The translations under genes were made by a program, and so were the position numbers. A stretch of 56,810 bases of DNA from assembly GCA_938083005.1 (NCBI GenBank), contig CALKCU010000036.1:1-56810 (forward strand), in the 5' to 3' direction. This stretch comes from an uncultured Sulfolobales archaeon. Its GTDB lineage: Archaea; Thermoproteota; Thermoprotei_A; Sulfolobales; NBVN01. The notes beneath the pieces were generated by a model that saw only the letters and a list, made by a program, of their open reading frames with translations, was not told the DNA's origin and did no database searches. Below, piece after piece: positions 54,582 to 56,544 of this stretch. How positions within the stretch are numbered: position 1 is the first letter of the stretch; each line of letters starts with the position of its first letter.

Positions 54582-54656
54582 GCCGCGGTAGTATAGCCAG
54601 GCCAAGTATGCGGGCCTTTCGAGCCCGTGACCCGGGTTCAAATCCCGGCCGCGGCA
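54582..54656 (+). tRNA. tRNA-Glu (anticodon UUC)
   Basis: GCCGCGG/CCGCGGC acceptor stem, CGGGC-CTTTCGA-GCCCG anticodon arm, CCGGGTTCAAATCCCGG T-arm; no encoded CCA; intronless. Confidence 0.95.
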
Positions 54657-54661
54657 CTCTC

Positions 54662-54741: not shown

Positions 54742-55095
54742 GTGTCATCCGAGGGCGAGCCCGAGAAGAAGAGGGACATAAGGGCCCTGCTCTCCGTGGT
54801 ACCTCCAGCGGAAGCCCTAAGGAGGCAGAAGAGCCCTCCCCGGGAGAGGAGAGTGAGGTTAAAGTACAACCCGGCAGTGAAGCCCGGCAACCTACACATA
54901 AACCCGGGGCTACTCAAGGAGCTCCCCATAGGCGAGTACGCCGAGATCTCGGTTCACGGGAGGAGGATAAGACTCAAAGTGGTCGTGGACGAGGGGATTC
55001 CACCGGGGGAGGTATGGGGTCCTCCGGACCTAAAGAGCCATGGGATAGCCGACAACAGCATCGTGACTCTCAGACCCGCGGTGGGGCAGGGCTAG
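54742..55095 (+). CDS. Hypothetical archaeal protein with a small beta-barrel-like C-terminus
   Basis: GTG start about 35 nt after TATA-like cttataag; LHINPGLLKELPIGEYAEISVHGRRIRLKVVVDEGIPPGEVWGPPDLKSHGIADNSIVTLRPA. Confidence 0.6.
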   Translation: MSSEGEPEKKRDIRALLSVVPPAEALRRQKSPPRERRVRLKYNPAVKPGNLHINPGLLKELPIGEYAEISVHGRRIRLKVVVDEGIPPGEVWGPPDLKSHGIADNSIVTLRPAVGQG

Positions 55096-55129
55096 CGACT
55101 TAAAAGAACAGCTCTAGACGAGTATCGGG

Positions 55130-56243
55130 GTGCCGAGCATTTAGCTCCGAGGGCCTCGAGATAGGCAAGGAAGAGCTTAAGCGCCTAATCAGGGAGCTGA
55201 GGAAGTGGAGCGCTCACGCGACGACCCTTCTATCCCTGTACGTACCGCCGGGCAGACCCGTGGGCGAGGTAGTGAACATGCTAAGGCAGGAGCTATCCAT
55301 CACCGAGAACATAAAGCTGAAGAGGACCAGGTCCAAGGTTCAGTTCGCTCTGGAGGCGGCTATAGACAGGCTCCTGAGGATACCTAAGATACCCAAGAAC
55401 GGTCTCGTCGTGTTCGCCGGGGAGCACGACGAGACCGGGGACACCATAGTCTTGGTCTTCTCGCCCCCGGAGCAGGTTAGCGTGTTCTTCTATAGAACCG
55501 ACAAGCACTTCCACACGGAGTTCCTCGAGAGCATGGTCGAGGAGAGCGACGTCTACGGCCTCGTAATTGTGGAGCGAGACGAGGCTACCATAGGCCTCCT
55601 GAAGGGAGGAGCGATCACGGTCCTCGACGAGCTGGAGGGCTACGTTCCGGGGAAGCATAGCAGGGGGGGATGGTCTCAGAGGAGGTTTGAGAGGATAATT
55701 GAGGAGATGGTTGAGGAGTTCTACAAGAAGGTCGGCGAGAAGGTCAGTAGCTACTTCATACCGTTGCTAGAAGCCGGCAGGTTGAAGGGGATCATAATAG
55801 GGGGACCGGGCTACGCGAAGCTGGACTTCGCTAAGGGAGGCTACCTTGACTACCGCCTCCGAGGATTGATAGTGGGAAGCCCCCTAGACGTGAGCTCGCA
55901 GGGGGAGCCCGGCCTCAGGGAGCTCGTCGAGAAGGCGAAAGAGTACATCAAGGAGACGAAGTACCACAAAACGAAGGAGATACTGGAGGAGTTCAAGTAC
56001 CACTTAGCGAAGGACGACGGGTTGGCTATCTACGGTGAGACGGAGATAGCCGAAAGCCTCAAGCTCGGCGCTGTGGAGACCCTTGTTGTGACGGAGGACT
56101 ACCCCAGGATGGCGGAGCTGAAGAGCCTAGCTGAATCTAGCGGAGCTAAAGTCGTAGTAGTGGACGAGGAGTTCATGGAGTACGAATGGATTAGGAAGGC
56201 CTTCGGCGGAGCCGTTGCGATACTGAGGTACCGGGTTAGCTAG
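55130..56243 (+). CDS. prf1: Peptide chain release factor aRF1; 5' end requires +1 shift or non-canonical start
   Basis: aRF1 sequence KEELKRLIRELRKWSAHATTLLSLYVPPGRP...QELSITENIKLKRTRSKVQFALEAAIDRLL. Track start GTG 55260 is inside the conserved domain; GTG 55130 is out of frame by one. Confidence 0.85.
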
Positions 56244-56544
56244 ACTCTTCGCCGCCCTCCTCTTCGCTAAGGAGCTCTAGGAGTATCTCGTAGAACTCTT
56301 CCTTCTCCTGCTCTATCTCCTCCCGGCTTCTCGCTAGCCCGCCCCCCTCGCTTACGACGGAGGTGGTCTTCACCTTGGGCTCCGCGCCCGCGCTACCGGT
56401 TAGCCTGTACTTCTCTCCAGTCTTGGAGACCTCCTCGTGACCGCACTTCGGGCACTTGTAGATGTGGCCGTCGCTTGTTCTCTGGGGAACCATTACAGTC
56501 CCACACTTGGGGCAAAACTTCGTGTTAGCCCACCTCTTAAGCAC
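56236..56544 (-). CDS. TFS/RpoM-like single zinc-ribbon protein
   Basis: TKFCPKCGTVMVPQRTSDGHIYKCPKCGHEE N-terminal ribbon; acidic C-terminus, no second TFIIS-type ribbon. Confidence 0.75.
   Translation of the reverse strand: MLKRWANTKFCPKCGTVMVPQRTSDGHIYKCPKCGHEEVSKTGEKYRLTGSAGAEPKVKTTSVVSEGGGLARSREEIEQEKEEFYEILLELLSEEEGGEESS

Follow-up and report, generated by a model that had tools for sequence, protein, structure and literature searches.

How is the release factor aRF1 made when its gene opens out of frame? In an uncultured Sulfolobales archaeon, the aRF1 gene is preceded by a GTG at position 55130 that runs into an in-frame TAG at codon 5, and the conserved aRF1 N-terminus begins one base over. 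The locus lies in a stretch of 56,810 nt (the window), taken from a metagenome-assembled genome of 70 contigs with 83% completeness. A preliminary description of this DNA had pointed out the arrangement and had considered an RF2-like +1 frameshift, an extra T introduced by sequencing error and initiation at an ATA at 55161. On direct reading of the sequence, its coordinates and its description of the locus are correct. From the comparison of this locus with its relatives, we estimate a probability of roughly 0.86 that aRF1, here and in most of the order, is made by autoregulatory programmed +1 frameshifting.

The aRF1 locus in the window

55099..55106, + strand: TATA-like promoter element cttaaaag, from direct sequence reading
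55101..55103, + strand: TAA, the nearest stop ahead of aRF1 in its own frame
55127..55132, + strand: G-rich Shine-Dalgarno-like GGGGTG overlapping the start codon, a candidate element whose role is a proposal
55130..55144, + strand: 0-frame mini-ORF GTG CCG AGC ATT TAG (start, three codons, stop)
55139..55142, + strand: proposed slip site ATT-T, at which the P-site tRNA-Ile would move from AUU to UUU
55142..55145, + strand: in-frame stop TAG (55142-55144) and the following C
55143..56243, + strand: aRF1 frame of 366 codons and stop, to be reached by the proposed +1 shift (TIGR03676, Pfam)

From 55143 onwards, the +1 frame reads AGC TCC GAG GGC CTC GAG ATA GGC AAG GAA GAG and stays open until the stop at 56241-56243. 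As the preliminary description had stated, this frame contains no ATG, GTG or TTG between the TAA at 55101 and a GTG at 55260. The encoded protein is aRF1 and not a member of the bacterial RF2 (prfB) family: it matches the TIGR03676 equivalog with E=8e-130 and 433 bits (cutoff 234.7), and all three eRF1 domains are found in the product (PF03463, eRF1_1; PF03464, eRF1_2; PF03465, eRF1_3). The product predicted after the shift begins MPSI-SSEGLEIGKEELK. We scanned the window for an ATG or GTG followed by one or two codons, NTT and a stop, with the +1 frame then open for at least 150 codons, and found the aRF1 locus as the single instance.

Directly upstream of aRF1 lies a 117-codon gene (54742-55095, +) with no Pfam or NCBIfam match, and a tRNA-Glu (TTC) is located at 54582-54657 (+), upstream of the aRF1 region. 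On the other side, aRF1 adjoins a zinc-ribbon gene (56236-56544, -) that resembles transcription factor S, although its 42 bits against TIGR01384 fall below the cutoff.

Proposed mechanism

In bacterial prfB, slow termination by a scarce factor permits the P-site tRNA to slip (PMC12421855), and it is by analogy with this system that we propose a slip from NUU to UUU in aRF1. The mRNA would have a short leader or none, with initiation at GTG 55130 (most relatives have ATG), and the ribosome would read two or three more codons before it meets the in-frame stop with NUU in the P site. When aRF1 is plentiful, termination at the early stop would release a tiny peptide. When aRF1 is scarce, the ribosome would pause and the P-site tRNA could slip by +1 (AUU to UUU), upon which anticodon bases 2 and 3 would pair again and translation would continue in the aRF1 frame. 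The net effect would be that aRF1 restricts how much of it is made, in the manner of bacterial RF2. The sequences themselves establish the start in another frame, the NTT-T and the stop, together with their conservation, the selection specific to one frame and the absence of a conventional start; from these and from prfB, we infer a shift, its efficiency and a feedback by the aRF1 level.

Conservation of the layout

Is the out-of-frame start a common motif of aRF1 genes in the order? A first survey identified aRF1 in 60 related genomes, whose DNA ahead of the gene was inspected; the counted sample comprises 157 aRF1 loci from the order and one sister lineage outside it (f12), close relatives included. 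The layout of a start, one or two codons, NTT and a stop, with aRF1 in the +1 frame, is present in 102 of these 157 loci, and the register of the mini-ORF is the same in all 102. An alignment of close relatives had been set as a check in the preliminary description, and it bears the reading out: in the genus of the window, all seven species, represented by independent assemblies, keep GTG NNN NNN ATT TAG C with aRF1 in +1. Conservation at both levels is far above chance.

By family, the layout is found in 31/31 loci of f11 (ATG AGT CTT TGA C/T), 23/23 of f9 (ATG RGY YTT TAG Y), 15/15 of f2 (ATG NCT ATT TAG, with TAA and TGA also present within the family), 4/4 of f3 (ATG AGT ATT TAG) and 25/30 of f1. 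The form in f4 is GTG AGC TCT ATT TAG, and that in the sister lineage f12 is GTG TTG TAT ATT TAG. One f11 locus (L069/L210) is that of S. acidocaldarius, with an exact match to all 231 aligned residues of the 8HKU aRF1 chain; it reads AGGG ATG AGT CTT TGA C, and L213 encodes the same protein. Judging from this locus and from L080, which is Sulfolobales archaeon Acd1, family f11 would correspond to the Sulfolobaceae. The families f5, f6, f7 and f8 show the layout in none of 45 loci, and nearly all of these have an in-frame ATG, GTG or TTG; one of these loci, L075, agrees over 103 residues with the aRF1 of Aeropyrum pernix in 3AGK.

On the aRF1 tree, the layout requires 6 changes, compared to 50.8 when the trait is shuffled, a pattern that fits one old gain and several losses. 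The sequences thus reach beyond the preliminary description, to most of an archaeal order, to all three stop codons and to a prfB-like CTTTGAC heptamer in the Sulfolobaceae. In many heat-loving archaea, S. acidocaldarius among them, the aRF1 gene would seem to be readable only through a skipped base at an early stop. We consider it very likely, from these comparisons, that an autoregulatory shift within the first 4-5 codons of an mRNA with little or no leader is order-wide and ancestral to the Sulfolobales (GTDB), arose independently of prfB and converged on CTTTGAC.

Several loci depart from the common form. The layout is lost in one genus of f1 (g10; L024-L028, five genomes), of which 3/5 have an in-frame GTG. 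The two loci L024 (G022) and L027 (G030) of this genus have neither an in-frame canonical start nor the layout, and their GTG lies 13 nt from the TAG, not 12. In L018 and L019, the stop is preceded by TAT (TAT TAG) and an in-frame ATT is present; TAT-T re-pairs badly. Two f4 loci, L054 (ATT TCT ATT TAG) and L114 (ATA TCA ATT TAG), keep the stop, and the ATT and ATA that take the place of the mini-ORF ATG are possible near-cognate starts. In L060 (G046, f7), the region around the N-terminus lacks both a canonical in-frame start and a shift site; ACG stands before the conserved AGC TAC. L064 (G039, f10) carries ATG AGT GTT TAG C together with an in-frame GTG formed from the same bases (ATGAGTGTTTAGC); combining both states, it looks like a transitional form on the way from the frameshift to its loss and the plain state.

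Proposed slip site and stop codon

Across the 102 loci with the layout, the mini-ORF starts with ATG (76) or GTG (26), always 9 or 12 nt before the stop. The stop is TAG in 70, TGA in 30 and TAA in 2; such a mix would be expected if aRF1, being omnipotent, could be served by any stop. The codon before it is ATT (44), CTT (36), TTT (18), GTT (2) or TAT (2), so that a slippery NTT-T is present in 100/102. A pyrimidine follows the stop in 99/102 (C 70, T 29, G 2, A 1).

The shift is followed by Ser, Asp, Glu or Asn, encoded in every case by a codon that forms a stop together with the T before it. For Ser, the codon is AGY in 70/70 cases, versus 39% AGY at the other serines of these genes. Lineages that lack the site also use TCN for Ser at codon 2 (7/20), and their codon 2 would make a stop in only 16/44 cases and would not in 28/44. 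Taken together, the invariably stop-forming codon, the AGY bias and the 16/44 elsewhere indicate that the stop is kept as a stop and not as sequence.

We also considered a weak stop context at the slip site, argued from stop usage. This was rejected for this genome, since TAG-C is the commonest stop tetranucleotide at ordinary stops in the window (16/52 long ORFs), which sets it apart from contexts regarded as weak terminators.

No conventional start and selection in the +1 frame

A canonical in-frame start within 30 nt upstream is missing in 90/102 loci with the layout versus 7/55 of the others. Conversely, 48/55 loci without the layout have such a start (Fisher p=2e-21, uncorrected for phylogeny; the value overstates independence because the counts include close relatives). 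Of the seven, L071 and L162 do carry an ATG, which falls just beyond the 30-nt interval. In a few layout loci, an in-frame start does occur just upstream (L020, L029, L064, some in f2 and f9), unshared by their neighbours. Downstream of the shift, the first in-frame ATG, GTG or TTG is codon 40 in the window, 30 in S. acidocaldarius and 110 in L067, and otherwise is scattered from codon 5 to 110 across the loci. There is thus no shared conventional start.

Where does protein-like selection begin? For codons 2-12 after the stop, pN/pS in the +1 frame is 0.27 in f11 and 0.29 in f9, versus about 1 or more in the other frames and upstream. In f1, indels make the corresponding value (0.85) uninformative. 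Protein-like selection begins directly after the stop and in the +1 frame only. With this selection and the layout in 102/157 loci, the RF2-like frameshift suggested in the preliminary description is the best supported reading of the sequences.

Promoter, leader and G-rich element

In most f1 loci, the centre of the TATA-like box precedes the GTG by 25-31 nt, and in most f11 loci it precedes the ATG by 33-36 nt. The distance from TATA box to transcription start in archaea is usually 26-27 nt, and combining the two gives predicted leaders of about 0-4 nt (f1) and 7-9 nt (f11). The leaderless geometry proposed earlier for the window therefore stands as far as the TATA spacing goes, which fits; with a leader of 0-4 nt, the mRNA is better described as leaderless or nearly so. 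Leaderless mRNAs are established in S. solfataricus, one of them beginning with GUG (PMC11698992).

A GGTG or AGGG precedes the P-site codon by exactly 6 nt in 90/102 loci, with either start codon. The internal Shine-Dalgarno-like sequence of prfB lies 3 nt before the slip codon, a spacing not found here. By analogy with prfB, the G-rich element may stimulate the shift by pairing with 16S rRNA; a spacing of 6 nt would also suit ordinary Shine-Dalgarno initiation. A 16S rRNA gene was looked for in the source assembly and none was found. A downstream RNA structure as stimulator was rejected: folding z-scores over 75 nt are about 0 in f1, f2 and f11 and -0.3 in f9, and thus indicate none.

Alternative explanations

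Could aRF1 be initiated in its own frame at a non-canonical codon? The only serious rival to frameshifting takes GGTG/AGGG as a Shine-Dalgarno sequence and UUU, 7 nt downstream, as the start codon, with the GTG or ATG and the stop being incidental. The constant 6 nt between GGTG or AGGG and NTT would fit this, as would the UUU that precedes the conserved N-terminus in the aRF1 frame in 100/102 loci and the resemblance of GGTGAT in f1 to an extended Shine-Dalgarno sequence. UUU is not known to serve as a start codon, however, and the out-of-frame ATG or GTG at its two fixed distances from the stop would be left unexplained. Neither would there be a reason for the next codon to be stop-forming throughout, given the 28/44 elsewhere that are not, nor for the order to retain UUU when families without the site use ordinary ATG, GTG or TTG. 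We therefore regard initiation at UUU as unlikely.

Short ORFs that overlap the next gene can be coupled to it by termination and reinitiation. In a regulatory mini-ORF of this kind, the aRF1 level would set termination at the stop, and reinitiation at a nearby non-canonical codon would make aRF1. Such coupling accounts for the conserved stop and start, but no conserved codon is available at which to restart, the first canonical one being scattered as described above, and the conserved NTT-T would be left without a role. To us, this makes reinitiation distinctly improbable.

A shorter aRF1 that starts at ATA 55161 or at another internal codon is a very remote prospect. The ATA is in frame, and GTG occupies its position in L015, L016, L019, L023, L025 and L028, but other relatives have ATT, ATC, GTA, GTC, GTT or TTA there. 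The codon is thus unconserved, and the codons between the shift and the ATA are under purifying selection; on these grounds we rejected the ATA start suggested in the preliminary description. An extra T from sequencing or assembly error, likewise suggested there and conceivable for a metagenome-assembled genome, or a decayed gene has a negligible chance, since the layout recurs in independent assemblies for each of the seven species of the genus, in complete genomes of a single contig (S. acidocaldarius, for example) and in 102 loci altogether, and purifying selection after the shift is strong.

Comparison with known systems

Programmed frameshifting as the reading of the aRF1 locus invites comparison with bacterial prfB. 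In both, a release-factor gene contains an early in-frame stop readable by the encoded factor, with the functional ORF in +1; aRF1 reads all three stop codons (PMC3521657), and TAG, TGA and TAA are those used. Both have a slippery NTT-T before the stop (ATT-T in the window), and the Sulfolobaceae aRF1 heptamer CTTTGAC is identical to the prfB consensus CTT TGA C (PMC12421855). Also shared are the pyrimidine after the stop, mostly C and a C at the window locus, a G-rich Shine-Dalgarno-like element upstream, and repeated loss with reversion to an uninterrupted frame.

There are also differences. aRF1 belongs to the eRF1 family and is unrelated to RF2; GGQ is all that RF1/RF2 have in common with eRF1/aRF1 (PMC3521657). 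RF2 reads UGA and UAA, and the prfB stop is TGA in over 99% and never TAG (PMC12421855), whereas the aRF1 loci use all three. The stop is at about codon 26 in prfB but at codon 4 or 5 in aRF1, and the G-rich element is 3 nt from the P-site codon in prfB but 6 nt in aRF1, where it abuts or overlaps the start codon. Finally, the aRF1 mRNA is predicted to be leaderless or nearly so.

A homologous case is known from viruses. The class-I release factor of Mimivirus (R726) and Megavirus (mg280), which is of the eRF1/aRF1 type, is made by a +1 shift at CUU UAG C or CUU UAA C (PMC3521657), and five f9 loci and one f11 locus likewise have CTT TAG C. In contrast to aRF1, these genes are viral and have an additional stop that is read through. 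The same 2012 paper described such autoregulation as absent from the archaeal and eukaryotic homologues of the viral factor (PMC3521657).

Translational frameshifting as such has precedents in archaea, namely the -1 shift in Sulfolobus fucA1 and haloviral and Mg-chelatase cases; the cellular cases are -1, unlike the shift proposed here, and the one named +1 case is viral (PMC8211752). Neither this review of archaeal recoding nor a review of frameshifting (PMC5009743) mentions a release-factor case. In agreement with the preliminary description, which had thought an archaeal aRF1 case new, we found no report of one in openly licensed papers, and it is likely unreported. For saci_0999/SSO2339, we found no published transcription start site, proteomic or ribosome-profiling data in such papers; the sole one naming these genes is a nucleoid-protein study. 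A screen for frame transitions did not detect prfB frameshifts less than 50 nt from the start (PMC3711429), and this blind spot may explain why the aRF1 case was missed.

Implications

In summary, the comparison of aRF1 loci makes a strong case for a conserved release-factor +1 frameshift site in archaea, which would work like that of prfB in an unrelated protein. If true, cellular archaea would provide their first case of a release factor autoregulated by frameshifting, and two unrelated release-factor families would have converged. The N-termini of aRF1 would be misplaced by conventional gene calling across the order, including S. acidocaldarius, in which the first in-frame start is codon 30, inside domain 1. 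It would also make a naturally occurring +1 shift, one on an mRNA with a short leader or none, available in an archaeon amenable to genetics. We anticipate that aRF1 probably controls its own amount, as a different release factor does in bacteria.
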